Positions 14,449-49,573 of a stretch of DNA of 64,000 nucleotides are shown here, piece after piece. The stretch's first letter is position 1, and every line of letters starts with the position of its first letter. The stretch covers positions 1-64,000 of the forward strand of contig JAIEMQ010000008.1 in the NCBI GenBank assembly GCA_019752015.1, read 5' to 3'. Source of the DNA: Cyanobacteriota bacterium (GTDB lineage: Bacteria; Acidobacteriota; Vicinamibacteria; Vicinamibacterales; UBA2999). Both the position numbers and the translations under genes were made by a program. The notes under the pieces are model-generated. The model was not told the origin of the DNA. It did no database searches and was given only the letters and a program-made list of their open reading frames with translations.

Positions 14449-14453
14449 GACGG

Positions 14454-17863: not shown

Positions 17864-17866
17864 GAG

Positions 17867-19153
17867 TTAGTGCTCGTCTCCGATCAGTTCGCGCTGCAAC
17901 GCCGTCTTGAAATAAAAACTTCCGACGCCGACGATGGTTTCGCCCCCCTTCAATCCCGCCTTGATCTCGACCATGTTGCCGGCCTGCAAGCCGAGCTGGA
18001 CATTTTGCCGGCGGAACCGGGTCTCGGACTCGCGCACGAACACCGCCGGCTGGCCGTCGATTCGTTGAATGGCGTCGACGGGCACCGCCAGTGCCTGTTG
18101 CTGGTCCTTGGTCGGAATCGCCACGCGGGCGAACATATCCAGGCGCAGCAGCCCGTCCGGGTTCTGCACCACGCTGCGCACCTTCGCCGAGCGTGACTTC
18201 GGATCGATCACGTCGCTGACGTAGGTGAGCTGTCCCTTGAACGTCCGGTCTGGGTAGGCGTCGACCTTCACAGTCACTTCTCCCGAAGCGGGCACGCGCG
18301 CCAGATCCTTTTCATACACGTCGGCGAGAATCCAGACGGTATCGAGGTTCGCGACCGTCACGAGCGCTCGTTGGGGCTCCACGATTTCACCCAGCGCCAC
18401 GTCGTAGGTCGTAATCACGCCATCGAACGGCGCGCGAATGGTGGCGAGGGTGGCGGCGCGGTGATTGGTCTCTGCGGTATCCGGACCAAGCTTTTCCAGC
18501 TCCGCGTCAGTGAGGCCGAACCGGTGAATCTGTTCGTCAATCCGATCCATCGTCGCCTGCGCCCGATTGACCGCTGATTGCGCATTCTTGAATTCGGCGC
18601 GGCGGAGATCGAGCACCTGTTGGGAGATCGCCTGCTGGCCGATCAACGCCTCGGCGCGCTCAACCTGGCGTTGCCTGACCGCCAGATCACTCTCCGCCTG
18701 CTGCAACCCTGCCCGCGCCTCGAAGAACTCGCCCAGCCGCTCGCCGAGCTCGATGTTGTCGTAGGTCAAGAGCGGCTGGCCGGCCTTGACGCGGTCGCCG
18801 AGCCGCACCGAGACCGCGGTGATCAGCCCTCGCGCCAGAGGCCGGACTTCCGCAACGCGCGAACCTTCGGGGGCGACAACACCGGTCACTTCGAGCTGAA
18901 CAGGCACGATCGATTGTTTGGCTTCGACGAGCTTGACGCCGGCGTTCGTCTGTGCCGTCACGGGAATCTCGACCGTGCCGGGTGGCAGATCGGCGCGCTC
19001 GGCTTCCTGTCCGGCGGCCGCGGGCACCCCGTCCCGGCCGCTGACGGCCCACATGAGCCCGCCGCTCATGAGCGCGCCCGCCAGCGCAGCGATGACAAGT
19101 GGCGCCGCTTGGGAGCGCCCGGAATTCGATGGTAAGTTGAAATCGTCTGTCAT
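17867..19153 (-). CDS. czcB: CzcB/CusB-family RND adaptor (cassette 2)
   Basis: 428 residues with an uncleaved N-terminal anchor (PLVIAALAGALMSGGLMWAV), then the adaptor core: VAEVRPLARGLITAVSVRLGDRVKAG in the first barrel half, a helical hairpin with repeated Gln/Ala heptads, and IRAPFDGVITTYDVALGEIV in the second half. The barrel and membrane-proximal domains follow (VAIPTKDQQQALAVPVDAIQR). It lacks the extra N-terminal domain seen in the cassette 1 protein. It joins the inner-membrane pump to the outer-membrane factor. czcC lies 12 bases upstream. Confidence 0.93.
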   Translation of the reverse strand: MTDDFNLPSNSGRSQAAPLVIAALAGALMSGGLMWAVSGRDGVPAAAGQEAERADLPPGTVEIPVTAQTNAGVKLVEAKQSIVPVQLEVTGVVAPEGSRVAEVRPLARGLITAVSVRLGDRVKAGQPLLTYDNIELGERLGEFFEARAGLQQAESDLAVRQRQVERAEALIGQQAISQQVLDLRRAEFKNAQSAVNRAQATMDRIDEQIHRFGLTDAELEKLGPDTAETNHRAATLATIRAPFDGVITTYDVALGEIVEPQRALVTVANLDTVWILADVYEKDLARVPASGEVTVKVDAYPDRTFKGQLTYVSDVIDPKSRSAKVRSVVQNPDGLLRLDMFARVAIPTKDQQQALAVPVDAIQRIDGQPAVFVRESETRFRRQNVQLGLQAGNMVEIKAGLKGGETIVGVGSFYFKTALQRELIGDEH

Positions 19154-19165
19154 GGTCGGATCCTG

Positions 19166-20461
19166 CTAAGGCTGAACGGAAGGACGGCCAATGGCCGCTG
19201 CAACTTCGAAGTCGCTGAGACGACGCTCGTAGAGCGCGCGATTGTAAATGCGCAAGGTGTCACGGAAGGCGCGCTGGGCATCCAGGTAATCGATCAGCCC
19301 AGCCTCGCCGACCTGGTACGCGGCCATGACGGCATCACGAGCCTCGCGCGCCGCCCCCAGTGTCTCGCGTTCGATGTACTGGACGCGGGCCTGGTTGACT
19401 TCGATTGCGTTGACGGCCTGCTGCACGTCGAGCCGCACGTCGATCTCCGCGGCCGTGGCCCGGTTGGCGGCCCGCCGGCGCTCGGCCTCGGCTCGCACGA
19501 TGCCACCAGGGTTGCGATTGAACACCGGCAGCGGGACTGTTACAGCGAACAATACGCCGTTCGATGCGGTTCGGCGCGTGTACCCCCCACCGAGGGTGAT
19601 ATTGGGCGTGCGTATCGCGCGCTGCAACTGGGTTTCCGTGTCGGCGCGCTGCTGCTCCGTCCGCGTCGCCAGCAGGTCTGGGCGGCTCGCCATGGCTTGC
19701 CGCTCGAGCGCCGCGCGATCCAGCGCCCCGGTAGTTTCCACCCGGGCCAGCGTCGCCGTCACGGCGGGGACCTCCGTAAGCAATCCGCTGACGTCGAAGT
19801 CCCGCGTCAAATCCTGGTAGCCCATCGCCGCCAGCAGCGCGGCCTTGGCGTTGCGGAACGCCAGGTCGGTTGCAAACTGATCATCGACGAACCGCAGGCG
19901 CTCCACTTGCAACCGCCGCAGTTCGCCGCCGGCGATTTCGCCCTGATCGAACCGCGCCCGCGTAATCGTCAACATCCGGTCGATGTCCTCGAGCGCGGCC
20001 CGCGAGACGTCACGCTCCGCTTTCGCCAGCACGACTTGCAGATACGCCCGCTGCACGGCCAGCTCGACGATGCGGCGCTGGTCCGCTTGCAGGCTGCGCG
20101 CGATCTCCACCCGGGTTGCGGCGCTCCCCGTGCGTAAGCGCCGTCGCCCAGCCAGCTCCAGCTCCTGGTCCGCGCGAATGGTGAAATCCTGGCCGTTCAT
20201 GAACGACGGCCGTGAGGCATCGAACATAGGGAACCCCTCCGACGTGGTGGTAATCGCAGGATTCAGCCGCCGGCTCGCCTGCAGCCGATCGCCTTCGGCA
20301 GCCTCTACTTCATTGGCCGCAGCCGCGAGGGTGGGATTGCGTCGGCCGGCCAGCTGGATCGCGTCCCCCAACGACAGCACGGCCGGCAGCTCCTGCGCCG
20401 AAGGGGCCGCGGCGAACAGCAGCATCAAGGTCATCGAGCATGCGATGCGCGTACGTAACAT
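19166..20461 (-). CDS. czcC: CzcC-family outer-membrane efflux factor (cassette 2)
   Basis: 431 residues from ATG 20461, preceded by GGGGAAG at suitable distance; an earlier in-frame start at 20491 would place extra charged residues before the signal peptide. The signal peptide is MLRTRIACSMTLMLLFAAAPS. The TolC repeats follow: GDAIQLAGRRNPTLAAAANEV, RLNPAITTTSEG, and in the second half RPDLLATRTEQQRADTE and TPNITLGGGYTRR. The C-terminal helix has YQVGEAGLIDYLDAQRAFRDT. It is the outer-membrane exit duct of this RND system. Confidence 0.92.
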   Translation of the reverse strand: MLRTRIACSMTLMLLFAAAPSAQELPAVLSLGDAIQLAGRRNPTLAAAANEVEAAEGDRLQASRRLNPAITTTSEGFPMFDASRPSFMNGQDFTIRADQELELAGRRRLRTGSAATRVEIARSLQADQRRIVELAVQRAYLQVVLAKAERDVSRAALEDIDRMLTITRARFDQGEIAGGELRRLQVERLRFVDDQFATDLAFRNAKAALLAAMGYQDLTRDFDVSGLLTEVPAVTATLARVETTGALDRAALERQAMASRPDLLATRTEQQRADTETQLQRAIRTPNITLGGGYTRRTASNGVLFAVTVPLPVFNRNPGGIVRAEAERRRAANRATAAEIDVRLDVQQAVNAIEVNQARVQYIERETLGAAREARDAVMAAYQVGEAGLIDYLDAQRAFRDTLRIYNRALYERRLSDFEVAAAIGRPSVQP

Positions 20462-20585
20462 CTCGTGTCTTCCCCGGAAGAAAATGTTCATGCAAGTCCT
20501 GCCGCCGCACGGGCAACGGGACGTGAAGCCGCCAACGACGTGCGCGACCTCCTACTGACAGTCGCGCGAACGATGTTGTGACTGA

Positions 20586-24212: not shown

Positions 24213-24662
24213 TTGTATTTGCCGTACTTCGAAGTGCTCTCGGACATGCTGTCGTCGATCGGGGTGATTGCCGCCGGCCTGATCATGTGGACGACGGGGT
24301 GGTACTACGCCGACCCGATTTTCTCCGCCGGCATCGGCTTGTTCATCCTCCCGCGAACCTGGTCGCTCTTGCGTGAAGCCGTCGGCGTCCTGCTCGAAGG
24401 GACCCCGTCGGACGTGAATGTGGCCGGCGTTCGCGAGGCGATCGCCGCCATACCCGGTGTCACCGCCGTCCATGATCTGCACGTCTGGAGCCTGACGTCG
24501 GGGTTGAACGCGCTCAGCGCGCACGCGGTGCTGGCGCCGGGCGCCGCGTATGATGCGGTGCTCCGCGCGGTCCAGGCCCGCGTCACGGACGGGTTGAATA
24601 TCCACCACACGACGATCCAGGTGGAGCCGTCAGGTCACGCCGAGTCCGAGCCGCATCTGTGA
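24213..24662 (+). pseudogene. Cation diffusion facilitator, N-terminus missing
   Basis: The frame opens directly in helix 5 of a CDF transporter (YFEVLSDMLSSIGVIAAG), continues with helix 6 (WYYADPIFSAGIGLFILPRTW) and the complete cytoplasmic metal-sensing domain (AIPGVTAVHDLHVWSLTSG to HHTTIQVE). Helices 1-4, about 150 residues including the first half of the transport metal site, are absent, and no continuation is visible in other frames upstream. The ATG at 24213 may be fortuitous. CDF proteins export Zn, Co or Cd, so this was probably another resistance gene. It lies next to other truncated genes. Confidence 0.8.
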
Positions 24663-24703
24663 CGGGCCGTCAGCGTGTCTGATCAATAATCAAGTCGACG
24701 CAG

Positions 24704-25036
24704 ATGGACCTCATCGGAATGCTCCAGCATTTGCTGCAGTTGTCGATCGCGTTCGCGCTGGCACTCCCGATTGCCTGGGACCGCGAACAGCGCGAACGGA
24801 GCGCCGGTCTGCGGACATTCACGCTCGTGGCGATATCCACGTGTGGGTTCATGATGGCGGCCCAAACGGCCCTTGGTGCTTCGGCCGACGCGCAATCACG
24901 GGTCTGGCAAGGCCTCCTCACGGGCATTGGCTTCATCGGCAGCGGCGCGATCCTGAAAACGCAGGGCACGGTGCGCGGCACGGCCACGGCGGCGAGTATC
25001 TGGAACACCGCCGCGGTGGGCACCGCAGTCGCCTAA
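24704..25036 (+). pseudogene. mgtC: MgtC/SapB-family membrane protein, C-terminus truncated
   Basis: 110 residues covering the N-terminal membrane domain of MgtC: LALPIAWDREQRERSAGLRTF, the LLTGIGFIGSGAIL helix, then VRGTATAASIWNTAAVGTAVA. A stop follows immediately, where the family continues with a further helix and usually a cytoplasmic domain. The break point at about 25035 is also where a PIN-toxin gene on the opposite strand is cut, so both genes probably lost their 3' ends in one event. MgtC proteins are linked to Mg homeostasis and inhibition of ATP synthase. Confidence 0.8.
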
Positions 25037-25085
25037 AGTGCAGTGCGCTGACAAGGACGTTGGTGTCCGCGACGACGCGCGTCAC
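25035..25085 (-). pseudogene. N-terminal stub of a PIN-domain toxin
   Basis: GTG at 25085, overlapping the antitoxin stop (GTGA), starts VTRVVADTNVLVSALHF, the textbook first strand and helix of a PIN-domain toxin with its first catalytic Asp. After 17 codons the similarity ends exactly where the MgtC reading frame begins on the other strand. Only about one eighth of the toxin remains. Too short for automatic gene calling but clear from motif and coupling. Confidence 0.7.
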
Positions 25086-25318
25086 GAACGTGTGCGGGAC
25101 TCCTGGACAGCCTGCTCGACGACAGCCTCGACTTCAGCGTCGCTCATGTCGCCGCGCCGCTGATCGCTCTCGCGCCCGATGCGGTCAAGCCAACGACGGG
25201 CGAGATCACGCTCGATCGCCTTGGTCGCGAGCTGATCGACGGTCGTGCCCTCGGCGGCGGCAATCTGCTGCACGCGCTCGTAAACGGCATCCGGAACGAC
25301 GATGCTCTTGGTGGGCAT
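25082..25318 (-). CDS. Antitoxin of a PIN-type toxin-antitoxin system, toxin lost
   Basis: 78 residues from ATG 25318: MPTKSIVVPDAVYERVQQIA at the start, then a helical part (TTVDQLATKAIERDLARRWL) and an acidic tail (DMSDAEVEAVVEQAVQESR). This is the layout of short antitoxins that precede PIN toxins, binding DNA by the N-terminus and the toxin by the C-terminus. The toxin gene starts with a 4-base overlap but is cut after 17 codons, leaving the antitoxin orphaned. Confidence 0.7.
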   Translation of the reverse strand: MPTKSIVVPDAVYERVQQIAAAEGTTVDQLATKAIERDLARRWLDRIGRESDQRRGDMSDAEVEAVVEQAVQESRTRS

Positions 25319-25339
25319 GGTGAACTCACTCAAGTATAA

Positions 25340-28357: not shown

Positions 28358-28759
28358 ATGGCACATGCCACCTTCTGGATGCTCCGGCTCACGTGGACGG
28401 TGTGCGCATGTATTTGCGTCCTTACCCCTCGCTCCGTCATTGCTGGATCACGTCTCACGCTCGAGCGCAACAGCGACGGCCAACGCGGCAACGTCACGTC
28501 CGATCTGTGCGAGCCGTCGGTCGTCGGTGTCTGGGTATCCGAACCCCGGCTCACCAGCGTCACCCAGAGTCGTGCGCCGCTGCTGAGAGCCGCGACTGGC
28601 GATCTCGACGACGATCAGCGGCCCGACCTGATCGCCAGCGAGTTACGGATGCACGTCTGGACGCGGCATGACGAGTTCCGGCAGAATCGCGCGCACCCAT
28701 CGTACCCGTCGGCCGAACCGGGCGCCGCACGCCCCCCCCCAGCGCACATCCCCGCCTAG
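28358..28759 (+). CDS. Small secreted protein with FG-GAP-like Asp motif
   Basis: 133 residues. A hydrophobic N-terminus (LTWTVCACICVLTPRSVIAG) serves as signal peptide. The middle carries RAATGDLDDDQRPDLIA, a calcium-binding-type Asp loop like those in FG-GAP/VCBS repeats, followed by HVWTRHDEF and a Pro-rich end. I recall similar short proteins at the head of czc operons in related bacteria, so it may belong to cassette 3, although a radical-SAM fragment lies between it and czcB. Real function unknown. Confidence 0.5.
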   Translation: MAHATFWMLRLTWTVCACICVLTPRSVIAGSRLTLERNSDGQRGNVTSDLCEPSVVGVWVSEPRLTSVTQSRAPLLRAATGDLDDDQRPDLIASELRMHVWTRHDEFRQNRAHPSYPSAEPGAARPPPAHIPA

Positions 28760-28829: not shown

Positions 28830-29087
28830 ATGCGAATCGTCCTGGCGGATATCAACGGCGGCGACGGCGTCATCAGCAAGGACACCGTCGTCGGAGGGTA
28901 CGGCTCGAGGCTGAGACCGTTCTCGAAAGTGACGCGCGTGTTGGCCGCCACGAAGCGTGGCTTTCACGCGATGCCGAGCGTGCACCTTGCCTACGCGGCC
29001 GCGCTTGCGGTCCGCGCCGGGCACGAGGTGCATGTCGTAAAACCGTCGGACGGTCCAGCCGTGCGGTATGGCGTCGCTCGTCCATGA
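28830..29087 (+). pseudogene. N-terminal fragment of a B12-binding radical SAM protein
   Basis: The first 70 residues (MRIVLADINGGDGVISKDTV, then GGYGSRLRPFSKVTRVL and MPSVHLAYAAALAVRAGHEV) match the start of B12-binding radical SAM enzymes, in which the GGYGSR motif and the helix before GHEV are conserved. Similarity stops near residue 75 and the frame ends at 29087. The rest of the cobalamin domain and the CxxxCxxC cluster site are missing. The matching C-terminal half is at 35119-35817, on the far side of the czcBAC genes. Confidence 0.65.
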
Positions 29088-29176
29088 AGGGTGTGTGTGC
29101 CTTGTCCGTGGCGACGACCACATTGTGCTTGGCTTGCACGAATGTCGTCGCAAGAGTGCCGTTTGGGAGATGGCTT

Positions 29177-30388
29177 ATGACGCAACGGAAGCGCGATCGA
29201 ACCTGCACGAGCGTCGTGACTCTACGACAGATTTTTGTCGCCGCGATGTTCGCGGTACCCGTCGCGATCGGGTCCTCGGCCTGTCGCGGCGCAGAGCCCA
29301 CTGCCGACGCGCCCGCAGCGACAGCCGCCGGCAATCGATCACCAAACGCCACGAGCGGCGTGCGCCTGCAGGCGTCGCAGCTCAAAGAGGTCCGCATTGA
29401 GGAGCTCTCGAACAACGCCCCGGCCAACGCCATCAAGGCAACAGGGACCGTCGAGTTCAACGCCGACCGCACGGCAAAACTGCTCCCGCCGGTCTCGGGT
29501 CAAGTGCAGAACCTCGCCGTCAATGTTGGCGACACCGTCCGCAAGAATGACGTGCTGTTTCTTCTGAGCAGCCGTGAAGTCGCCGCCGCGGTGGCCGAGC
29601 ATCAGACCAGCCACAAAGATTTCGACCTCGCGGAGAAGATCTTTGCCAGGACCAGCGATCTCTTCGAGCATCAGGCCGCGTCCCGCATGGCACTGGAGCA
29701 GTCCGAGAACGAGCGGGCCAAAGCCCGGTCAAGGGTCGTGCAAACCGAGGAAAACCTCCAGGTGCTTGGATTGGACCCGCGTGCCGAAGACGAGACGCCG
29801 CGGGTGCAGCCGAGGATTCCAGTCCGCACGCCGATTGACGGCACCGTCATCGAACGGAACGTGACCAATGGTCAATTCGTCGGGTCGGAGACCTCACCGC
29901 TCGTCACGATCGCGGATCTCTCGAGCGTCTGGCTCCAGGGCGACATCTTCGAACGCGACCTGCGTCACATCTCCATCGGCCAGAAGGCAGACGTCACGAC
30001 CGCCGCGTATCCCTCCGACCAGTTCAGCGCACAGGTATCGCGCATCGCGTCGGTGGTCGACTCGCAGACGCGTACCGCGAAGGTGCGGTTCCTCGTCGCC
30101 AACCCCGGTGCGCGTCTGAAGCCCGGGATGTTTGCGTCCATTACCCTGTATCTATCGGACGCAGCGTCATCACTGTCGGTGCCGGCGAAAGCCGTCTTTG
30201 TCGAGAATGGCCGGATGTTCACCTACGTGCAGACGGGCCCGCAGGAGTTTGCCCGCCGCGAGGTTGAAACCGTGGCCAGCGGATCGGATCGCCTTCGCGT
30301 GGTGCGCGGCCTGAAAGCCGGTGACCGCGTGATCAGCGATGGCGTGTTGTTGCTGCGGCAACTGGAAGCAGAGTCGTCGGCCCGATGA
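29177..30388 (+). CDS. czcB: CzcB-family RND adaptor (cassette 3)
   Basis: 403 residues from ATG 29177. The N-terminus has a signal sequence (IFVAAMFAVPVAIGSSAC) with a weak lipobox-like Cys, so it may be a lipoprotein. The adaptor halves are LLPPVSGQVQNLAVNVGDTVRKND and VRTPIDGTVIERNVTNGQFV, separated by a helical hairpin rich in Glu and Ala. The barrel and C-terminal domains follow (VPAKAVFVENGRMFTYV). The stop overlaps the czcA start (ATGA). Unlike the other cassettes, here the adaptor gene comes first and the outer-membrane factor last. Confidence 0.92.
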   Translation: MTQRKRDRTCTSVVTLRQIFVAAMFAVPVAIGSSACRGAEPTADAPAATAAGNRSPNATSGVRLQASQLKEVRIEELSNNAPANAIKATGTVEFNADRTAKLLPPVSGQVQNLAVNVGDTVRKNDVLFLLSSREVAAAVAEHQTSHKDFDLAEKIFARTSDLFEHQAASRMALEQSENERAKARSRVVQTEENLQVLGLDPRAEDETPRVQPRIPVRTPIDGTVIERNVTNGQFVGSETSPLVTIADLSSVWLQGDIFERDLRHISIGQKADVTTAAYPSDQFSAQVSRIASVVDSQTRTAKVRFLVANPGARLKPGMFASITLYLSDAASSLSVPAKAVFVENGRMFTYVQTGPQEFARREVETVASGSDRLRVVRGLKAGDRVISDGVLLLRQLEAESSAR

Positions 30389-33300
30389 TCCGTCGCATCG
30401 TCTCTGTCGCACTGCACCAGCCCGTCTACATCCTGCTGCTGCTGGTGCTCTTCGTGGCCGGAGGGATTGCCGCGTTTCGATCGCTGCCGGTGGAAGCGTT
30501 CCCCGACGTCACGGACGTCCAGGTCACGGTGATCACGCTGTTTCCCGGTCACGCGCCGGAAGAAGTCGAGAAACAGGTGACGATTCCGCTCGAGATCGGG
30601 TTGAGCGGTCTGCCGAACGCGGTGCGGATGTTCTCACACACGCAGTTCGGCTTGTCGTACATCATCCTGACCTTCAACGACAACGCGAACGACTACTTCG
30701 CGCGCCAACAGGTGTTGGAACGGCTCCAGGCCGTGGATCTGCCGAGTGGCGTGCAACCGAGGCTCGGGCCGCTCTCGACCGCGATCGGCGAGATTTACCG
30801 GTACCACGTGGCGGGGAAGGGCTCGAGCCCGTCGGAGCTCCGGAGCGTGCAGGATTGGGTCGTCGCCCGGAATCTCAAGATGATTCCCGGCGTCGCTGAC
30901 GTGGTGAGCTTGGGCGGGTTCATCAAGCAGTACGACGTGACCGTGAACACGGCGCGCATGAAGTCGTACAACGTCACGCTGCAGCAGGTGTTCACCGCGC
31001 TCGGTCGGGGCAACGCGAACGCGGGCGGAAGTTTTCTGGAGCGCGGCGAGCAGCAGTATCTCATTCGCGGCATCGGCATGCTGCGCTCGAGCGATGACAT
31101 CGGCGACATCGTCGTCGCCGAACACCGCGGCACGCCGCTGCTCATTCGCGATATCGCGGATGTCAAGGTCGGTGCCGTTCCGCGCCAGGGCATCGTCGGT
31201 CAGGACGGCGATGATGAGATCGTGGCGGGCGTCGTCCTGATGCGGAAGGGCGAGAACCCGTCGGAGGTCCTGGCCGCCGTCAAGGATCGGGTCGCCGCGC
31301 TCAACGCGTCGATCCTGCCCAAGCCGGTGCGTCTCGTGCCGTTCTACGACCGCACCAAGCTGATTGATACGACGCTGCACACCGTGTTCAAGAATCTGCT
31401 CGAGGGCGCGCTGCTCGTGACGGTGGTCCTGTACCTGTTCCTGGGCAACCTTCGCGCCGCCGGCATCGTCGCCGTCGTCATTCCGCTGTCATTGCTGGCC
31501 ACCTTCATCGGTCTCAGGCTCCGTGGCATCCCGGCGAACCTGCTGTCGCTCGGGGCCATGGACTTCGGCATCATCGTCGATGGCGCCGTCATCGTCCTGG
31601 AGAACATCTTCCGCCACCTGACGGAGCGGCAAGACCACCACCGCGTGCCGAAGGCGATCGTCCTGGATGCGGCGGTCGAGGTGGGACGTCCGACCGTGTT
31701 CTCGATGCTCGTCATCATCATTGCCCATCTGCCGATCTTCACGTTGCAGCGCAACGAAGGTCGCATTTTTGCGCCGATGGCTTACACCGTGGTCTCGGCC
31801 CTGATCGGCTCCTTGCTGTTCTCGCTGACGCTGGTCCCGCTCCTGTCGCTGTTTTTCCTGGGCCACACCAAGGCACACGAAGACAACCTGCTCGTTCGCG
31901 CGTGCAAACGAGCGTATCAACCGGTGCTTCGCTTTGCGCTCGAGCGGCGGATAGTGGTTCTCGGTGCGGCCGTCGTGGCCCTGCTTGCAAGCCTGGCGTT
32001 GGTGCCGAAGCTGGGGACCGAGTTTCTTCCGGAACTGAATGAGGGCGCGTTGTGGATCAACATCATATTGCCGCCCGGCATCTCGGTCAGCGAGACATCG
32101 CGGCAACTCGCGCGCGTCCGGTCGACGCTTCGACAGTTCCCGGAAGTGGTCTCGGTGCTGTCGAAGGCCGGACGCCCGGAAGACGGCACCGATCCGAAGA
32201 TGATCAACATGGCTGAATTCTTCGTGGACGTGAAACCCGAGGCCGAGTGGCGGCGTGGTCTCACCAAGGATCGTCTCCTCGACCAGATGAACACGGCGCT
32301 GCAAACGATTCCCGGGATCAAGCCAAGCTTTTCCCAGCCGATTCGCGACAATGTGTTGGAGAGCATCTCGCAGATCGACGGGCAAATCGTCGTCAAGGTC
32401 TTCGGTGAGGACGTGGATGTCCTCAGACGTCTCGCCAATGACGTCTTGTACACGATCGCTCCGGTTCGAGGCATCGCCCGGGCCTTCGTCGATCGAGCCG
32501 GACAGGTGCCGCAGTTGCAGATCGAAATCGATCGCGCGCGGGCCGCCCGGTATGGGCTCAACGTCGCCGATGTCGAGGACGTGATCGAGACGGCCCTCGG
32601 CGGCAAAACGGCGACCGAGCTCTGGGAAGGCGAACGGCGATTCAAGGTCGTGGTGCGCCTCAGCGAAGAGGAGCGCCAGGACGAAGCGGCTATTGCGAAC
32701 GTGCTGGTCGATACGCCGAACGGATTGAGGATTCGGCTTTCGGAAGTCGCGACCGTGTCCGTCGCCAGCGGCAGCATGAACATTGCCAGAGAATCAGGCA
32801 TACGGGTGGCTGCCATCGCCGTGTTCATTCGGGGCCGGGACATGGGCGGCGTCGTCAACGAGATGCAACAGCGCGTCGCCGCCCTTCGCCTGCCGGCCGG
32901 CTACTACGTCACCTGGGGCGGCGAGTTCGAAAATCAGCAACGCGCGATGGCCCGGCTGCGGCTGATCGTGCCAATCAGCATCCTGTTGATCTTCGTGCTG
33001 CTCTTCAACGCATTTGGCGCGGTGAAACATGCAGCCCTGATCCTCGTCAATGTCCCGTTCGCGCTGATCGGCGGCATTCTCGCGCTGTATCTGACCGGCA
33101 TTCATCTCAGCGTGTCCGCGGCGATCGGGTTCATCGCGCTGTTCGGCCAGGCCGTGCTCAACGGCGTCGTCATGGTCAGCTACTTCAACCAGCTGCGTCG
33201 CACGGGCGTCGGGGCGTATCGCGCGGCTTTCGACGGCTCGCTGGTCCGACTGCGCACCGTTCTCATGACGACGCTGCTCGCGATGCTCGGGCTGACACCG

Positions 33301-33456
33301 ATGGCGCTTTCTCACAGCATCGGATCCGAAGTCCAGCGACCGCTGGCGGTCGTGATCATCGGCGGGCTGTTCTCGGCGGCGGCGCTGACGCTCCTCGTCC
33401 TGCCCGCCTTGTACGTGATGTTCGAGGGACCGGACGCACCACTTTCTGGGAGCTGA
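30385..33456 (+). CDS. czcA: CzcA-type heavy-metal RND efflux pump (cassette 3)
   Basis: 1023 residues beginning MIRRIVSVALHQPVYILLLL with VEAFPDVTDVQVTV. Helix 4 reads [15 protein letters not shown] with Asp393, Asp399 and Glu406, the CzcA-type set for divalent cations. The periplasmic loops and the final helices ([19 protein letters not shown]) are complete. The sequence is as distant from the other two CzcA proteins as they are from each other by eye, so separate origins are likelier than local duplication. Confidence 0.95.
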   Translation: MIRRIVSVALHQPVYILLLLVLFVAGGIAAFRSLPVEAFPDVTDVQVTVITLFPGHAPEEVEKQVTIPLEIGLSGLPNAVRMFSHTQFGLSYIILTFNDNANDYFARQQVLERLQAVDLPSGVQPRLGPLSTAIGEIYRYHVAGKGSSPSELRSVQDWVVARNLKMIPGVADVVSLGGFIKQYDVTVNTARMKSYNVTLQQVFTALGRGNANAGGSFLERGEQQYLIRGIGMLRSSDDIGDIVVAEHRGTPLLIRDIADVKVGAVPRQGIVGQDGDDEIVAGVVLMRKGENPSEVLAAVKDRVAALNASILPKPVRLVPFYDRTKLIDTTLHTVFKNLLEGALLVTVVLYLFLGNLRAAGIVAVVIPLSLLATFIGLRLRGIPANLLSLGAMDFGIIVDGAVIVLENIFRHLTERQDHHRVPKAIVLDAAVEVGRPTVFSMLVIIIAHLPIFTLQRNEGRIFAPMAYTVVSALIGSLLFSLTLVPLLSLFFLGHTKAHEDNLLVRACKRAYQPVLRFALERRIVVLGAAVVALLASLALVPKLGTEFLPELNEGALWINIILPPGISVSETSRQLARVRSTLRQFPEVVSVLSKAGRPEDGTDPKMINMAEFFVDVKPEAEWRRGLTKDRLLDQMNTALQTIPGIKPSFSQPIRDNVLESISQIDGQIVVKVFGEDVDVLRRLANDVLYTIAPVRGIARAFVDRAGQVPQLQIEIDRARAARYGLNVADVEDVIETALGGKTATELWEGERRFKVVVRLSEEERQDEAAIANVLVDTPNGLRIRLSEVATVSVASGSMNIARESGIRVAAIAVFIRGRDMGGVVNEMQQRVAALRLPAGYYVTWGGEFENQQRAMARLRLIVPISILLIFVLLFNAFGAVKHAALILVNVPFALIGGILALYLTGIHLSVSAAIGFIALFGQAVLNGVVMVSYFNQLRRTGVGAYRAAFDGSLVRLRTVLMTTLLAMLGLTPMALSHSIGSEVQRPLAVVIIGGLFSAAALTLLVLPALYVMFEGPDAPLSGS

Positions 33457-33460
33457 CGAT

Positions 33461-34993
33461 ATGACAACTTGGAGCTTGATCTGTTTCGTGCTCGTGACGG
33501 CGATCGGAACAGGGTGTGCACATCACGTGCGAACCCATACGTACGCGTGGCAACGGCGAGGCCGGGTGGCATCGGTGATTCACGCGATTGCGCTGGCATT
33601 CATTTTGGTGTCAGTTGTGCCGCCGGCCTTGGCACGAGGCCAGTCCGGATCGCAGAACCCCACCGCGGCGCCGCCTGTGCCACCGCGGCTCACGTTGCCC
33701 CAGGCCGAGGAGTTGCTGCGTCTTCGCAACCTTGCCGTCGTCACGCGGCGCCGTCAACTGGACGCCAACGTCGCTGCCCGCGTGATCGCGGGTTTCAAGC
33801 CGAATCCAGTATTGACGCTTGGGGCGCAGCAGTTCCCATATGCCACGAACGTGCCCGGCAGTGCGCCGCGATTTGTGTCGACGAATCCGGACGCGGGTGC
33901 AAACCCGCTGTACACCATTCATGTGGACAAAACTGTGGAGCGCGGTGGCAAGCGTGAACTTCGCATGGAGCAGGCCGATGCAATCGTGGACGGCGCGACG
34001 GCGCAAATCGAGGACGCGCTTCGTGTTCAAGGGTTTCAACTGCGGCAGGTGTTCGTGAGTGCCATGTTGGCTCGCGACAACCTGAGTCTGGCATCGCAGA
34101 TTCAGGACGACTACACAAACACCGTCACGATCGTTGCGACGCGCGTGCGCGCCGGCGACCTCCCACCAGTCGAGCTGTACCGTGCGCAGGCCGCGAACTT
34201 GCCGTTTCGACAAGCCACGCTCGACGCCCAGAACGGTTACGAACAGGCGATCCGCGACGTGCTGAACGTGCTCGACGCGGGGCCGGACGATGTCGCCGCA
34301 TCCCGGCCGGCGGCGACGTACCCCGCGTCGGACCGCGGTGTGCTGGCCGATCGAACGCTGTCGCTGGCTGTCGCACCACAAACGCTCGCAGTTTCGACGC
34401 CTCTGGAGATAGAGGGCAGCTTCAGCGCGAGACCCGTGATGTTGTCCATTGCAGAACTGCGTGCGCTGGCACTGGCGAACCGTCCCGACCTGCGCTGGGC
34501 GCGAAGCAATGTCAAAGTGGCGCAGTCGGCGACGCGTCTGGCTCGGGCCGAGCGCGCGCGAGACGTCGTGGTCGGCCTCGAATACCAGCGGGTGGGCAGC
34601 GATCAAGCAGTGGGCGTCACGACGCAAATCCCGTTATTCGTGTATAACAACCAGAGGACGGGTATCACGCAAGCCACGGCCCTCGAACAGGCGGCCGAAG
34701 CGCAGGTGCGCCAAGCGGAACGGCAGGCGCTCACCGACGTGGACAAAGCGTACCAAGCGTACCTCGCGGCGAGCCGGACACTCGCCCTCTACAATCAAGG
34801 CAATCTCAAGCAGGTCGAAGATGTCCGCAGCATCACCGCGTACACCTACCAGCGCGGCGCCGTCCGGTTGTTGGAACTCCTCGATGCCGAGCGCATGGCG
34901 CGACAGACCTTGGTCGCGTTCAACCAGGCGCGGGCGGCCTACCAACTCGCGCTCTTTCAACTGGAGGCGGCGACCGGCGTTCGGTTGCCGTGA
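33461..34993 (+). CDS. czcC: CzcC-family outer-membrane efflux factor (cassette 3)
   Basis: 510 residues. The ATG at 33461 follows GGGAG; a first hydrophobic stretch with Cys (LICFVLVTAIGTGCAHH) is followed by a second signal-like segment (VIHAIALAFILVSVVPPALA), so the true processing site is uncertain. The TolC repeats are present: LTLPQAEELLRLRNLAVVTRR, FKPNPVLTLGAQQFP and, in the second half, LALANRPDLRWARSNVKVA. The C-terminal helix has YQRGAVRLLELLDAERMARQ. It completes the third RND system. Confidence 0.9.
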   Translation: MTTWSLICFVLVTAIGTGCAHHVRTHTYAWQRRGRVASVIHAIALAFILVSVVPPALARGQSGSQNPTAAPPVPPRLTLPQAEELLRLRNLAVVTRRRQLDANVAARVIAGFKPNPVLTLGAQQFPYATNVPGSAPRFVSTNPDAGANPLYTIHVDKTVERGGKRELRMEQADAIVDGATAQIEDALRVQGFQLRQVFVSAMLARDNLSLASQIQDDYTNTVTIVATRVRAGDLPPVELYRAQAANLPFRQATLDAQNGYEQAIRDVLNVLDAGPDDVAASRPAATYPASDRGVLADRTLSLAVAPQTLAVSTPLEIEGSFSARPVMLSIAELRALALANRPDLRWARSNVKVAQSATRLARAERARDVVVGLEYQRVGSDQAVGVTTQIPLFVYNNQRTGITQATALEQAAEAQVRQAERQALTDVDKAYQAYLAASRTLALYNQGNLKQVEDVRSITAYTYQRGAVRLLELLDAERMARQTLVAFNQARAAYQLALFQLEAATGVRLP

Positions 34994-35118
34994 GCAACTC
35001 ATGCCGGGGGCCGCTGACGGCGTGATCGTCATCTATCGATGGGAGGGACTGCCGCGAGGGATCGTCGGATGGTGACGTTGTAGAATCCTCGCTCGGTGCC
35101 CCGGGCGCCTCCCGCTCA

Positions 35119-35817
35119 TCGCTGTTCACGCAGGATCGAACTCGCGTCTTCGAGCTCTGCGACGCGATACGATCGCGCAGTCTCTCGCACACCTTCGAAT
35201 GCGAGACGCGGCTGGATCGCCTCGACGGAGAGCTGTTGCTCGCGATGCACCGCGCGCGCCTGCGCGCTTTGAGCTTCGGCGTCGAATCAGTCGCAGACAC
35301 GACGCTGAAGAAGGTGGGACGACGTCCGATCCCCGAGCCTCACCAGCGCGAGGTTCTGCGACGGTGCCGCGACCTCGGCATCGTGACCGCGGCCTTCTAT
35401 GTGCTCGGGTTCGCCGAGGACACCTGGGACTCTATTCAGGCGACGATTGAATACTCAATCGACCTCGGATCGACGGTGGCTCAGTTCAAGATCCTGACGC
35501 CTTATCCGGGCACACCGCTCTACAAGCGGATGCTGCCAACGATCACTGAAACTGACTGGGAACGGTTCGACGGCTTTACGCCGACGTTCACGCACGCCTC
35601 ATTGACGCATGCGGAGCTGCGGTTTCTGTTAGGGAACGCGTACACGCAATTCTACATGCGTCCGTCGTTCCTCACGAATTACATGCGCATCGCCATGCCG
35701 CAAGTGCGAACGCTGGTCGAATCACTGGACGGGCGCGTTCGCGAACATCACAGGCGGGACGTCATGGCCAAGAAACGGTCGCTTGCGGACGACCGATTGG
35801 CGGCGCCGGTGTGCTGA
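35119..35817 (+). pseudogene. C-terminal half of a radical SAM protein
   Basis: The continuous frame reads LFTQDRTRVFELCDAI, FECETRLDRLDGELL, LSFGVESVADTTLKKVGRRP, AAFYVLGFAEDTWDSIQ and TPYPGTPLYKRML. These are strands 3-6 of the radical SAM barrel and the C-terminal region of the B12-dependent group (YMRPSFLTNYMRI). The cluster-binding Cys triad should be about 60 residues further upstream but is absent; the frame runs into unrelated sequence before 35119. No start codon fits. It is most simply the other end of the gene begun at 28830. Confidence 0.75.
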
Positions 35818-35835: not shown

Positions 35836-36417
35836 ATGGATCTGACCGGCCTGCCTGGACTCCCTCACTGGCTGCCATACTGCGGCATCTTGATTGCGGC
35901 CGCCGTGGAAGGCGAAATCGCGTACATCGCCGTGACGCTGGTCGCGAGCGGACAGCTCAATGCGATCGGCGTCCTGGTGTCGGGCACCATCGGTGCGGCG
36001 CTCGGCGATCAGGCATTCTTTTTTGCGTTTCGCGGCCGCCTGCCCCGGTGGCTGTCGCGGTATCCGTGGCTGCAGCAGCGGGCGGCGCCGCTCGTCGAGC
36101 GCGTGCGGCGCCGCGCGGCGTTGATGGTGCTGCTGATCCGGTTTGCGCCCGGCCTGCGCATTGCCATCATCGCCGCTTGCGCGTGGGCCGACGTGCCGCC
36201 GCGGAAGTTTGCGGCGCTCAACCTGCTCTCGGCCTTGGTGTGGGCCTCGGCCGTGATGGCGCTCGTCGGGTGGTTCGGGCCGGCGTTTTTCGCGCAGTTC
36301 GGACTCGGAGGATGGAAGGGCGCGTTGATCGTTGGCGCCGCGTTATTCGGGTTGCTCAAGGTGCTCGGCTGGTTCGAACGCCGCGCGTTGGAACGCCCAC
36401 ACTCCGTCAATTCGTAG
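35836..36417 (+). CDS. DedA-family membrane protein
   Basis: 193 residues from ATG 35836. Membrane segments include PYCGILIAAAVEGEIAYIAV, VLVSGTIGAALGDQAFFFAF and the C-terminal GALIVGAALFGLLKVLGWF. The conserved pieces E-x-E near the start and FFAFRGRLPRW and LLIRFAPGLRIAIIAACAW (the FxRFxPxxR-type motif) place it in DedA/VTT, proteins that move lipid carriers such as undecaprenyl phosphate or phospholipids across the inner membrane. It follows the radical SAM fragment by 18 bases and precedes a DegT-type gene, consistent with envelope glycan work. Confidence 0.88.
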   Translation: MDLTGLPGLPHWLPYCGILIAAAVEGEIAYIAVTLVASGQLNAIGVLVSGTIGAALGDQAFFFAFRGRLPRWLSRYPWLQQRAAPLVERVRRRAALMVLLIRFAPGLRIAIIAACAWADVPPRKFAALNLLSALVWASAVMALVGWFGPAFFAQFGLGGWKGALIVGAALFGLLKVLGWFERRALERPHSVNS

Positions 36418-36430: not shown

Positions 36431-37726
36431 ATGGCCGCTATCTCGAGGTTCGGCACGCGGGTCGTTCCGGACTTACAGCAGATCATCCGGCAGTGCCGCG
36501 AGCGCAATCAGCTCGTCCAGGGCCCGCACATCGAGGAGTTCGAGCACGAGTTCGCGCGCGTTCTCGGCTCGGGGCACGTTCGTGCGTGTTCGACCGAGTA
36601 CGGCCGGATGGCGCTCTATTTCATCCTCAAGGCGATGGACTTTCCGCCCGGCGCCGAGAGTCATCGTCCCGGCGTTCACCTTCTGGGTCGTTCCAGAAAT
36701 CGCGCGCGTCGCCGGCCTCACCCCGGTATTCGTGGACATCGATCCCCTGACGTTCACGATGGATCCGGCAGCCGCGGCCCGCGCGGTCACGCCGAACACG
36801 CGGGCAATTCTTCCGACCCATCTGTATGGCATGTCATGCGACATGGATCCGATCCTCGAGCTGGCGCGGCGCCACCAACTGCGAGTCATCGAGGACTGCG
36901 CTCACTCACTCGGCGCCACCTACAAGGGCCGGATGGTGGGCACCCACGGCGACGCGAGCTTCTTCAGCTTCCAGGCATTCAAGCCACTGAATACCTACGG
37001 CGGCGGGCTCGCCTGGATGCGTGATGCGGACGTTGCGCGCAGAGTCGGTGAATACGCGGGCGCGGAAGCGTGGCCGGCGGAGAAGCGCGTCGAACGCATT
37101 CTTGGTCCGGCAAATGGCAGCACACGTTCATCCGGCCGAAGGTCTTCACCTATTCGCTCTTCCCGATCTGGTACGCCGCGTCGTGGGTGAATGCGAAGCC
37201 GGAAGAGCGCTTGTGGGAGCGCGTCCGCCGTCTCGATCCGCTGCCGCAACAGTACCGCGGGCGCTTCTCCAATGTGCAGGCGGCGATCGGACTCGCGGGG
37301 CTCGCGCGGCTGCCAGTGGTCATCGAGCGCACGAGGCGGCACGCATTGATGCTGGATCAGTTGCTGGGGGATGCTCCCGGCATCACCATTCCCCGAATTC
37401 CGCCGGACCGCACACACGTCTACTATCAATACTGCGCCTACGTGCCGGACAGCGAGAGCTTCGTGAAGCGGTGCATTCGCCGCGGTGTCGATGTGGCGCC
37501 CATGCACGTGGATGTCTGCACCGGCATGGAGTTGTTCGGGTGGACGGGTGGACCGATGCCGGGCGCGGCGAAGGCGTCGACAGCGGTGCAGGTGCCGGTG
37601 TATGAGTCGCTGGCGGATCACGAAATCGAGCGGATCGGACGGCTCGTGCGACAGCAGGCCGAGGCGCACATCGGCAGGGCAAGCCGTTCACCGCGGACCA
37701 GGATCGCCGGCGATCCTGGGGGCTAA
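36431..37726 (+). pseudogene. DegT/DnrJ/EryC1 aminotransferase, two frameshifts
   Basis: Three frames in series make one PLP-dependent sugar aminotransferase. Frame one (from ATG 36431) has QLVQGPHIEEFEHEFARVLG; frame two continues after about 36659 with VIVPAFTFWVVPEIARVAGL, EDCAHSLGATYKGRMVG and the PLP-Lys segment FFSFQAFKPLNTYGGG; frame three from about 37110 gives FIRPKVFTYSLFPIWYA and the C-terminal domain ending at 37726. The first shift fits one extra A in GCCGAGAGTCATC. Two separate shifts imply either a dead gene or assembly errors. An intact enzyme would aminate a nucleotide-sugar ketone. Confidence 0.85.
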
Positions 37727-42279: not shown

Positions 42280-43796
42280 TCATTGGACCACGACGGCTCC
42301 CTTCAACATGTTCATACCGCAGGAAAACGCAATCTCGCCCGGCTTCCGGGGCGTGAAGTCAATCGGCACAGGTTCATTGAGCGGCAACGCGCGTGTGATG
42401 TTCAACGAAGGGAAGGCGACTTCGGTGGCGCACGTCTGGTCCGTTGTGCGAACAAACGTCAGGCGTGCCGGCACTCCCGTGCGAAACATCACCTTCGCAG
42501 GCTCAAAGCCTTGTCCGGTAACGATGACTTTGACTTGCTGGTTGTCGCCGACGGAAGCCGTCTCAGTCGCTGAGCTGTTCCGCGTCGGGACTGTTGTCGT
42601 TTGGGCCGTCGTGCGCAAGCCGAGACGCTCGCGCTCAGCCTGAACGAAAAAGCTGCCTTCGGCGACAACAGTGTCTCCCTGCGCCACCCCTGACACGATC
42701 TCCACGCGATCGCCTGCGGACCGACCCAGGCGAACTTCACGTTCGGTGAATTTGCCGGGCTCTTTCGGGTGTGCAAGGTAGACGACCGTCCGGTCGGCAA
42801 CGTTCTGAACGGCGCTGCGCGGCACGACGAGCGTCCTGGCGGCGCCGGCCACAGCCACGACGACGTCAACGAACATCCCAAGCCGCAACTCCGCGCGAGG
42901 ATTGGGCACCTCGATGCGAATCTTCGCCGTTCGTGATTCAGCGTTGACCTGCGGATCGATGTAGCTGACGCTCCCGCGTAGCGCCAACTCCGGATAGGCC
43001 GTCGCCGTGATCGTCACGGTACTCCCGACGCGGACGCGGGAGAAATCCTTGTCGTAGAGATCGGCAACGATCCAGACGGTCGACAGATCGACGACGGTGA
43101 ACAGACTGGTGGCCGGGTCGACGTTAAGGCCGATGTTGGCGGCCCGCTCAGTGACGACTCCGTCAATCGGCGCTGCGATGTTCACCGTGGCGTTCACACT
43201 GCCTGCGGTGCCGAGCCCGTCGATGGTTGAAGACGACACGCCCAGCAATTCGAGTTGCGCCCGCGAGCTTTGCACGGTGGCAGACTGCGCAGCGTGCTCC
43301 GCATGAATGCGTTCGAGTTCCTGCCGGCTCGCCGCACCGATCTGGACGAGCTTTTCGGTGCGTTGTAGTTCACGGTCGTGTGCATCGAGCATAGCCTTCG
43401 CGGAGACGTACTTCGTCTGCGCGTCGGCGAGCTCGGGACTGTAGATTTGCGCGATGGTTTGCCCACGTCGGACTCGATCACCCAACGCCGCGGAAACCCG
43501 CGTCACTCGTCCAGAGACAAGAGGAGTGACGGCGACCAGCTTATAGGCGTTCGGCTCTACAACACCCGGTAGCCGGATGTCGGCACCTGATTCACCGCTC
43601 GAGGCGGGCGTCACGACGATGCCTGCGCGCGCGATCGCTTCGGCACTCAAGGGCACGACAACAGTGGCGCCGTCACTGTTCGCGCTTCGGGTAATGAAAT
43701 ACGCCGCGCCGGCGCCGATCACCACCAGCAGGAGGCCGATCAGTATGGCCGCGGCCTTATTGATCGATACGCGATTTCGGCTTCTTTTAAAGTCAT
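42280..43796 (-). CDS. CusB-type RND adaptor fused to a cupredoxin-like domain; frameshift near start
   Basis: The adaptor part spans VAVTPLVSGRVTRVSAALGDRV, a hairpin, IAAPIDGVVTERAANIGLNV and VVPRSAVQNVADRTVVYLA. After a Thr/Ser linker the last 95 residues form a small beta domain (VIVTGQGFEPAKVMFRTGVPARLTF, CATEVAFPSLNI, FSCGMNMLKGAVVVQ) like cupredoxin_1, with Cys, Met and possible His-less copper ligands. The in-frame anchor (AAILIGLLLVVIGAGAAYF) has no start codon; ATG 43796 after ACGAGG is one base out of frame, and a missing base in TTTAAAAG would restore MTLKRSRNRV. No RND pump gene lies beside it, so it must pair with a distant one. Confidence 0.85.
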
Positions 43797-43835
43797 CTTC
43801 AATCCTCGTGCCACGGCTGGCAAAGGTTGACGCAC

Positions 43836-43849
43836 TGAACAGCTGTTCA
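43836..43849. promoter_or_regulatory. Candidate ArsR/SmtB-type metal-sensor operator
   Basis: TGAACAGCTGTTCA is a perfect 14-bp palindrome. The pattern TGAA-N6-TTCA is the core reported for ArsR/SmtB-family operators, which release DNA when Zn, Cd, Cu or similar ions bind. It lies 40 bases upstream of the adaptor ATG (43796) in the divergent gap with the gene at 43967. No ArsR gene is present in the window. Confidence 0.5.
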
Positions 43850-43966
43850 CGCTTTTTAATCGCAGGAGATTGACGTCAGGCTTGCGGTCGCGTCGTTGGC
43901 GTTCGCATGAGGTATTGGATAAAGTAGCCGCGGCGACGTTCCGGCCGGCCTGCCAAGGAGATCCCG

Positions 43967-44746
43967 ATGCCGACGACGAAGCACCGCCTCGCCGGCGTGT
44001 TCTTCCTGCTTGCGCTGCAGCCCGCGCTCGGCGCCGACGTGCTGATCAAAGAGACGCTGATCACGGCGATGGCCGGCGGCGAGCGGCGCGCCGCCCGCAC
44101 CATCGCGATCAAGGGAGAACGCATGCGCATCGAGGTGGCCCAGGCTGGGCAGACGACGGTCACGCTGTTCGACCTGCCTGCACGCGCCACGATTACGCTC
44201 GACGCCGCGAAGCGCCGCGCGACCGTCACCCCGATGGCGGTGCGCGCCGCCGAGCTCGAGCGGAAGGTCCCACGCGCGCGCGTGACCAGCGCCATCGTCC
44301 CGCGCGAGGGCGTGCGGGAGGTGGGCGGCGTTCCGTGCCAGGACTTCACGTTCTCGGTACGGGTCCCCGCGACCAGCGACGGCGATCAGATCGTCGCCCT
44401 GTCGGGCACGGCCTGCGTCGCGGCGGTGCCGGGCACGGACGATTACGCGGCATTTGCAACGGCAGCGGCGGCGAGCGACCTCGTGATCGGCTACGCCTCG
44501 AGCAACAAATTCGCGCTCGCCGTAACGAGGGGCCGCACCGAGCTCCATCGTGCGCTCGCCGCCGTTCGCGGAATTCCGCTCCAGATCGACATGATCTCGA
44601 AGGCCGAGGGCGCTGGATTGTTCAACCGCATGCTCAACAAGATCGTCGCCGGCACGTCCGTCTCAACGGTCACGTCGGTCACGACCACGCCGCTCGAGGA
44701 CGCCAGTTTCGCTGTACCGAACGGCTGGAAGCGCCAGCAAAAATAA
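43967..44746 (+). CDS. Secreted DUF4412-like protein
   Basis: 259 residues with a signal peptide (RLAGVFFLLALQPALGA). The mature part is beta-rich: VLIKETLITAMAGGERRAARTIAI, MRIEVAQAGQTTVTLFDLP, VGGVPCQDFTFSV and the closing FAVPNGWKRQ, which matches the end of DUF4412 proteins (FxVPxGYK). One pair of Cys (VPCQD and GTACV) may form a disulfide. DUF4412 resembles lipoprotein-carrier-type folds; its ligand is unknown. It is divergently placed from the CusB fusion and may share the palindromic control region. Confidence 0.7.
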   Translation: MPTTKHRLAGVFFLLALQPALGADVLIKETLITAMAGGERRAARTIAIKGERMRIEVAQAGQTTVTLFDLPARATITLDAAKRRATVTPMAVRAAELERKVPRARVTSAIVPREGVREVGGVPCQDFTFSVRVPATSDGDQIVALSGTACVAAVPGTDDYAAFATAAAASDLVIGYASSNKFALAVTRGRTELHRALAAVRGIPLQIDMISKAEGAGLFNRMLNKIVAGTSVSTVTSVTTTPLEDASFAVPNGWKRQQK

Positions 44747-44913
44747 TCCGGCGGCCGCGGCGGGTGTTCGACGACGAGCGCCTCACAAGGAGCCGTTGCT
44801 CGGGGTATTGCTTTTGCATGCCCATCGAGGGGGCGTGGCCGGCCGATTTTGCGTCCTGCCATACGGCCGTGGTCCGCGGCGTCGTTGTAAAGGACATTTT
44901 CGAAGGTCAGCCG

Positions 44914-45564
44914 ATGGCGAACCGTCTGCCGCGTCATGTCGGGATCATTCCAGATGGCAATCGCCGGTGGGCGGAGCACCAGGGGTTGCCCCGGCCAGCG
45001 GGTTACGCCGCGGGCATCGAGCCCGGCTTAATCGTGCTTCGCCGTGCCGAAGCGCTGGGCATCGAAGAAGTGACGGCCTACGGTTTCACAAAGGAGAATG
45101 TCCGCCGTCCGCGGGCGCAGGTCGTGGCATTCCAAGACGCGTGCACCGAGCTCGCCTTGCTGGCGCTTCAGGAAGGCGCGGCGCTGCTCGCCGTCGGAGA
45201 TACCGCCTCGCCTGTGTTCCCTGATCGCCTGCGCCCCTTTACCGAAGTGCGCGCACCAGGACGCATCAAGTTCAACATTCTGGTGAACTACAGCTGGCAA
45301 TGGGATCTCGGTCACGCGTTTCGTGTCGCGCGCGCTGATCGCGTCGTCGTCAAGCCCGCCGAGGCGCTTGGGTCAGCGGCGATCGGACGCATTGACCTGG
45401 TAATTCGCTGGGGAGGACGCCGTCGTCTGTCGGGGTTCTTGCCCTTCCAATGTGCCTATGCCGATTTCTTCACGATTGACAGCCTGTGGCCGGACATGAA
45501 CGGCGACATGCTCGATGAAGCGCTGCAGTGGTACGCCGGCCAGGATGTGACATTGGGCGGCTGA
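44914..45564 (+). CDS. Undecaprenyl diphosphate synthase family protein (short form)
   Basis: 216 residues from ATG 44914, with GAAGG upstream. The cis-prenyltransferase signature is present: RHVGIIPDGNRRWAEHQGLP (catalytic Asp), YGFTKENVRRP, LVNYSWQWDL, and the C-terminal IDLVIRWGGRRRLSGFLPFQCAYADFF and LWPDM. RWGG replaces the usual RTGG, and the chain is about 30-40 residues shorter than typical UppS. It probably makes an isoprenyl diphosphate, perhaps of non-standard length; a housekeeping copy is expected elsewhere. Earlier in-frame starts exist at 44820 without family match. Confidence 0.85.
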   Translation: MANRLPRHVGIIPDGNRRWAEHQGLPRPAGYAAGIEPGLIVLRRAEALGIEEVTAYGFTKENVRRPRAQVVAFQDACTELALLALQEGAALLAVGDTASPVFPDRLRPFTEVRAPGRIKFNILVNYSWQWDLGHAFRVARADRVVVKPAEALGSAAIGRIDLVIRWGGRRRLSGFLPFQCAYADFFTIDSLWPDMNGDMLDEALQWYAGQDVTLGG

Positions 45565-45750
45565 ACACGGATCGGCCCGCCGGCGATCCCGGCAGGTGCC
45601 GTTCGTTCGCACCTCTGGTCCTGCGTGTGGGCGAGGTGCGGGCGCCGTTCCCTCATCATCACCCTCATCATCGATCGGCTTGTCGGCCGCCGGGCATAAT
45701 GTTAGGCTTCTGCTCCGGTCGATTTCGTGAACATTTCAGGGAGAACACGC

Positions 45751-46170
45751 ATGAAGCTCGCTTACTCACTCGGTTTGACCGTCGCAATAGCCGTCGTCGC
45801 GATGTGCGCGACGATCACCGCTCACGAACGTAAAGAAGTTGCCGGCCTTGAAATCGTATTCGGCGCCGAGCCCGAGCCGGCTTTGAATGGCGAGAAGCAG
45901 TTCCTGCGGTGGCGCTTCCTGAAGGACAAGCAGCCGTTCGGCGACATCGAGGAACTGGTGGCGAACGTCAAACGAAATGGCAAGACGTTCGGGCCCTTCA
46001 CCGGCCGCATGACGCCCCGCGAACCGGGTGTGGTCGCCACCCAACACATCTTCAACAACGTCGGTGAGTATGAGGTGACGTTGACGTTCAAGAAGAAGGG
46101 CGACGCGACCGTGCACACCGTGACGTTCCCATTCAAGATCGGGGATCGCAAGACGCTCGAAATTCCGTGA
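45751..46170 (+). CDS. Small secreted Ig-like protein with N-terminal His, YtkA/FixH-like
   Basis: 139 residues from ATG 45751, preceded by GGGAG. The signal peptide (LGLTVAIAVVAMCATITA) would leave HERKEVAGLEIVFGAEPEPAL as mature start, i.e. His1. The remainder is a single beta sandwich (FLRWRFLKDKQPFGDIEEL, PGVVATQHIFNNVGEYEVTLTF) in the style of YtkA or FixH domains. The stop overlaps the start of the HupE-like gene (GTGA), so the two are translated together. A periplasmic metal-binding or chaperone role is suggested by the neighbours, not proven. Confidence 0.7.
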   Translation: MKLAYSLGLTVAIAVVAMCATITAHERKEVAGLEIVFGAEPEPALNGEKQFLRWRFLKDKQPFGDIEELVANVKRNGKTFGPFTGRMTPREPGVVATQHIFNNVGEYEVTLTFKKKGDATVHTVTFPFKIGDRKTLEIP

Positions 46171-46850
46171 CGATCGTCCGTCGATGGCTGGTGCTGGTGC
46201 TGGCGCTGGTTCCGCTGCTGCCGGTACCGCTGGCGGCGCACGGCGTCTCCGCGAGCGATCAGGATTTGATCACTCAGGGGCGTCAGCTGGCCGTGTTCAT
46301 CTATCTGGGCGCCAAACATATGGTCACCGGTTATGACCATCTGCTGTTTCTGTTTGGCGTCATCTTTTTTCTCTACCGCCTCCGCGAGGTCGCATCATAT
46401 GTGACGCTGTTTGCCGTCGGACACAGCTTCACGTTGCTGTATGCCGTGTTGAGCGGCACCCACGTCAACGCCTTCATCATCGACGCGATCATCGGTTTTT
46501 CGGTGGTCTACAAGGCGCTCGACAACATCGGCGGGCTCCGGCGTCTGCTCGGCGTTCAACCAAACACGAAGGCCGCGGTGTGGATCTTCGGCTTGTTCCA
46601 CGGCCTCGGACTCGGCACGAAGCTGCAGGACTTTTCGTTGTCGCCCGACGGGCTGGTGGCGAACATCATCGCATTCAACGTTGGTGTCGAAGCGGGGCAA
46701 ATCCTCGGCCTCAGCGCCATCCTGATTGGCATGGGCTTCTGGCGCCGATCGAACGGCTTTGCTGATCACGCCTATGCGGCGAACGTCGCCGTGATGACGT
46801 GCGGCTTCGTTCTGGTGGGCTACCAGTTGGCCGGCTACGCGATTCAATAG
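46167..46850 (+). CDS. HupE/UreJ-family membrane protein
   Basis: 227 residues from GTG 46167. A signal peptide-like start (WLVLVLALVPLLPVPLAA) gives His at or near the mature N-terminus (HGVSAS). Six or so membrane helices follow with family motifs: IYLGAKHMVTGYDHLLFLFGVIFFL, VGHSFTLLYAV and IFGLFHGLGLG, each carrying His or Asp within the membrane. HupE/UreJ proteins are linked to Ni or Co supply, but the HupE_UreJ_2 group occurs widely in copper and other metal loci. It is coupled to the Ig-like protein upstream. Confidence 0.85.
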   Translation: MTIVRRWLVLVLALVPLLPVPLAAHGVSASDQDLITQGRQLAVFIYLGAKHMVTGYDHLLFLFGVIFFLYRLREVASYVTLFAVGHSFTLLYAVLSGTHVNAFIIDAIIGFSVVYKALDNIGGLRRLLGVQPNTKAAVWIFGLFHGLGLGTKLQDFSLSPDGLVANIIAFNVGVEAGQILGLSAILIGMGFWRRSNGFADHAYAANVAVMTCGFVLVGYQLAGYAIQ

Positions 46851-46865
46851 AATCCATCCGTAACC

Positions 46866-47426: not shown

Positions 47427-47455
47427 CCTCGAGCATCACGACGCGGAGCTCGAAT

Positions 47456-48190: not shown

Positions 48191-48226
48191 AACGGGATAA
48201 ACGGCCCACCCCGTTTCTGAAAACGG

Positions 48227-49081: not shown

Positions 49082-49098
49082 GGCCTCGCGTCGCTCGA

Positions 49099-49431: not shown

Positions 49432-49573
49432 GATCAAACTCCTCAGGTGTAGGAAACGCTTGCCCCATTATTATGCGGGGCTGATCGCCGCGCAAACATT
49501 GCACGTTGATCATGAATCAAAATTAATCCTGATGTCAGTAGGGCGCGATATCTTCAGAACCAGGAGTTGACTT

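Follow-up and report, generated by a model that had tools for sequence, protein, structure and literature searches.

A composite czc efflux operon lies between the two ends of a broken radical SAM gene in an acidobacterial genome

A czc efflux operon is found on the + strand of the 64,000-nucleotide stretch of DNA that we analyzed (the window), with pieces of radical SAM (rSAM) sequence on either side of it and on the same strand. Are the two pieces the ends of one gene, as the original prediction held, and, if so, how did the operon come to occupy the middle? We searched each rSAM piece separately against 99 relative genomes and found that both match the same gene, collinearly and on one strand, in 12 of them (own genome not counted); one further intact locus (L046) came from GTDB contigs, for a total of 13 loci. 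In an alignment with the 13 intact proteins (462 to 466 residues), the left piece corresponds to residues 1 to 67 and the right piece begins at about residue 240. Positions 28830-29030 and ~35117-35817 are confirmed as the two ends of one gene of ~463 codons, and the fragments fit one intact homologue, not different families.

The left open reading frame (ORF; 28830-29087, 85 codons) had been taken as a whole for an rSAM start, which it is only as far as 29030. The homology ends there sharply, after codon 67, and codons 68 to 85 are post-junction sequence. Its rSAM part is 88% identical in amino acid sequence to the intact gene of genome G034, and its matches to relatives reach an E value of 1.6e-34 (87 to 88% identity over 67 to 68 amino acids). 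The right piece, predicted at 35119-35817, is the C-terminal part that it was thought to be, with homology beginning at about 35117, and has the same relatives (E values down to 5e-114; 69 to 75% identity over ~220 amino acids for the nearest four). By DNA alignment, the left join is at 29030/29031 and the right one at about 35116/35117. The block absent between them amounts to about 171 to 174 codons, fewer than the ~200 first estimated, and it contains the cluster cysteine triad, as anticipated: the motif CPEFCTYC falls inside the block, all 13 intact relatives have CxxxCxxC at residue ~196, and the window's remnants have no such motif. The absent block was not found elsewhere in the own genome by a protein search, whose empty answers had no internal positive control. 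Because the Fe-S cluster motif is gone, the rSAM enzyme is dead.

The three intact relatives that were scanned match the Radical_SAM Pfam model above its cut-off and have no B12-binding Pfam domain (threshold E value, 0.01), so the assignment of the gene to the B12-binding group was not supported. Intact homologues find their best-scoring models in HpnJ, one of the B12-type families, and AprD4, with all scores far short of the equivalog cut-offs; among solved structures they match only AprD4 (6fd2), apart from a weak match to NocN. With Radical_SAM and CPEFCTYC they resemble HpnJ/AprD4/BchE-type enzymes, of which their scores make them an unnamed relative; the window copy, in contrast, consists of two remnants. 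Of these, the right piece falls just below the Radical_SAM cut-off and matches the HpnJ, AprD4, and BchE models over their last parts, and the left piece alone matched no informative family in Pfam or NCBIfam. Judging from the neighboring genes, the reaction of the intact enzyme may be the modification of an amino sugar or a lipid.

No czc gene was detected inside the retrieved intact rSAM loci of relatives (threshold E value, 1e-5), and all 13 loci represent the empty site that the original prediction called for. Relatives keep the gene whole, so its destruction is the work of the operon or of a rearrangement that brought the operon in. Third-codon-position bias persists in the remnant, with a mild excess of amino acid changes on the window branch; by this rough test, the break appears young relative to the gene and to its divergence from the relatives. 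The rSAM gene is absent from all 8 same-genus genomes, and, therefore, the event cannot be dated within the genus.

The flanks of the insert also belong to one host locus. The small secreted FG-GAP-like protein to the left (28358-28759, + strand) had been suspected to head the czc operon. Its homologues instead sit upstream of the intact rSAM gene: it is 36% identical to the ORF directly upstream of rSAM in L049 (E = 4e-17), it matches upstream genes in L047 and L050, and it has no match to the FG-GAP genes located ahead of czcC in the related operons of L104 and L105. To the right, an intact DedA/VTT membrane protein gene (35836-36417, + strand; VTT domain, 2e-11) encodes a product with 62 to 64% amino acid identity to those of the DedA genes adjoining rSAM in L049 and L050. 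It is followed by a broken DegT-type aminotransferase gene (36431-37726, + strand), the 3' partner of rSAM in relatives. Aligned with the intact DegT genes of L049 and L046, the window copy has gained a single base at one indel and lost a single base at the other, and it stops prematurely; these indels could be sequencing errors. The gene order of L049 (genome G068), FG-GAP-like, rSAM, DedA, and DegT, is that of the window minus the insert, and other rSAM relatives have subsets of these four genes or an altered order.

Between the joins, all on the + strand, are czcB (29177-30388), encoding the periplasmic adaptor (HlyD_D23, 8.6e-51; RND_mfp and CzcB/NccB models); czcA (30385-33456), encoding the HME-RND pump; and a czcC ORF of 510 codons (33461-34993). 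CzcA matches the CusA/CzcA family model TIGR00914 over its full length (residues 1 to 1013; 1067 bits, against a cut-off of 701). The three efflux genes that had been predicted are present, with one qualification: the first 39 codons of the czcC ORF (33461-33577) come from another gene, that of a small DUF5666-like lipoprotein, and are 44% (L105) and 36% (L104) identical in amino acid sequence to ORFs directly 3' of czcA. The remainder (33578-34993), fused in frame to this lipoprotein start, makes up a complete czcC; it includes a signal-like segment of its own and the OEP domain of a TolC-type outer membrane factor. The lipoprotein gene that directly follows czcA in the related operons (L105:1-285; L104:7636-7920) may be a standard accessory in operons of this type.

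Genomes G119 and G120, from other families of the same order, have the nearest czc operons in the order. The window's czcB product is 78% and 66% identical, and its czcA product 92% and 87% identical, to those of G119 and G120, respectively, whereas its czcC product is only ~27% identical to theirs and has its best relatives (48 to 52%) in other families of the phylum. The operons of G119 and G120 read FG-GAP, czcC, czcB, czcA, and small lipoprotein, in contrast to the B-A-C order of the window; that of G120 (L104:6605-16257) is flanked by two FG-GAP genes, which share 63% identity over 182 residues. The B-A-C order is not unique to the window, since L137 and L138 of the same phylum share it. 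Given that czcB, czcA, and the lipoprotein start are from one operon type and czcC is from a different lineage, the operon is composite; the predicted insertion of a resistance cassette with loss of host sequence is supported, but the cassette did not exist ready-made.

In having a pump above the TIGR00914 cut-off, an adaptor of the HlyD/CusB type, and a TolC-type outer membrane factor, the system resembles CzcCBA and other HME-RND efflux systems, from which it differs in its gene order and in a czcC of other lineage fused to a lipoprotein start. The nearest solved structure to CzcA is ZneA (4k0e), with which it aligns end to end, and CzcA keeps the transmembrane-helix motif DFGIIVDGA...EN, which in this family suggests export of divalent cations. 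These features suggest that the pump exports divalent metal ions.

To what extent can the source of the czc genes be traced? Fourfold-site differences between the window's czcA and those of G119 and G120 are 0.49 to 0.50, and the difference in rpoB between this genome and G120 is 0.37. The divergence of czcA is no smaller than that of rpoB, and, therefore, there is no sign of recent transfer from the G119 or G120 lineages, a source that we reject on this comparison. Movement of a resident operon would fit as well, as would a donor outside the sampled genomes. We also reject a plasmid source, because a plasmid search returned relatives at 60% identity or less for czcA and at 33% or less for czcC.

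Metal resistance genes are common on the contig: besides three HME-RND operons and a partial fourth czcA, it carries two P-type ATPases, a CusB-like protein that includes a cupredoxin domain, a multicopper oxidase, CopA/CopB-like proteins, and a cupredoxin. The HME-RND, P-type ATPase, and copper resistance genes lie at 1627-20491, 29177-34993, and 42280-53899. More gene debris is located near the insert, at 24213-25323: the C-terminal piece of a cation diffusion facilitator gene, covering only the end of Cation_efflux together with ZT_dimer, and after it an MgtC gene with an early stop that may continue in another frame.

At the joins themselves, two short stretches belong neither to the rSAM gene nor to the efflux genes. 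The left one (29031-29176, + strand; 146 bases) has no homology to rSAM relatives or czc operons, and in the own genome it matches only short words (16 to 24 bases, 88 to 100% identity). The right one (34994-35116, + strand; 123 bases), after which rSAM homology resumes, likewise gave only short chance words. The recombination footprints that the original prediction had proposed to look for at the joins did not emerge: target duplication, terminal inverted repeats, microhomology, and direct or inverted matches between the two joins were all at or below the level of shuffled sequences. No repeat of at least 12 bases spans the joins within the window, and no long repeats occur at the joins in the own genome. 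No recombinase (transposase or integrase) is present among the window proteins scanned, the window has no tRNA gene, and no RNA families or sigma-70 promoters were found near the join. The G+C content is even across the region. The joins are known from one draft assembly of 82 contigs.

We are highly confident that an insertion-deletion took place in the rSAM gene, by whichever route. Because we detected neither a target duplication nor repeats, terminal or long, and no recombinase among the proteins scanned, illegitimate recombination is the simplest route, and we consider it probable that in this way the composite czc operon of ~6.1 kb replaced ~170 rSAM codons. We propose that the ancestral host locus consisted of the secreted FG-GAP protein, rSAM, DedA, and DegT aminotransferase genes, and that ~6.1 kb with czcB, czcA, and the fusion of lipoprotein start and czcC would have taken the place of the central codons by non-homologous recombination while DNA was being repaired or taken up. 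As in other insertion-deletions of this origin, other DNA substitutes for a stretch of a host gene, and the joins lack repeats. A known route to such changes in natural transformation is homology-facilitated illegitimate recombination; unlike in that process, no stretch of donor-host homology was found at either join. The DegT frameshifts would fit the decay of a pathway no longer needed. Alternatively, a larger mobile element (a transposon or integrative element) with metal genes may have inserted into the rSAM gene and subsequently lost, through deletions, its recombination genes and its ends along with part of the host gene. The abundance of metal resistance genes on the contig is in line with such a two-step history, and the junction stretches (146 and 123 bases) could be its remnants; given that neither a transposase or integrase nor a target duplication or terminal repeats turned up, and that the window has no tRNA gene, we regard it as possible but not likely. 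That the capture was itself selected, with the efflux genes taking over host-operon transcription and one series of rearrangements also creating a lipoprotein-started outer membrane factor with altered CzcC anchoring, seems doubtful to us.

The remaining explanations require the arrangement to be an artifact, a coincidence, or a program. An unrelated czc contig could have been joined into the rSAM gene during assembly, which was a draft in 82 contigs, but both joins interrupt a single gene whose two parts keep their strand and order, neither join is bridged by a usefully long repeat in the genome or the window, the G+C content is even, and the flanks on both sides form one syntenic host locus; a chimera is, therefore, improbable. 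Since radical SAM genes are numerous, and G120 has an unrelated one upstream of its related czc operon, two different genes or remnants might flank czc by chance. The window's remnants, however, have the same nearest relatives and are complementary, non-overlapping parts of one gene, so we give coincidence very little credence. Gene inserts that are excised precisely are known in general, and a programmed element of this kind would restore the rSAM gene on leaving it; with ~170 codons lost and not found in the genome, excision cannot do so, and the insert has no recombinase, which makes this the least credible reading, close to negligible.

The gene disruption is sound, if mechanistically fairly ordinary. 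The scar is clean and well bounded: in a phylum that has received little study, a resistance operon replaced part of a metabolic gene, and no machinery of a mobile element is left. It is also an annotation trap, in that the two rSAM remnants would appear as separate genes. The czc genes are intact and run the same way as the host operon, from which they might be expressed, and export of divalent metals would be possible. For the Acidobacteria, the locus illustrates that efflux operons are pieced together from separate parts and can be put in place with no transposon in evidence.
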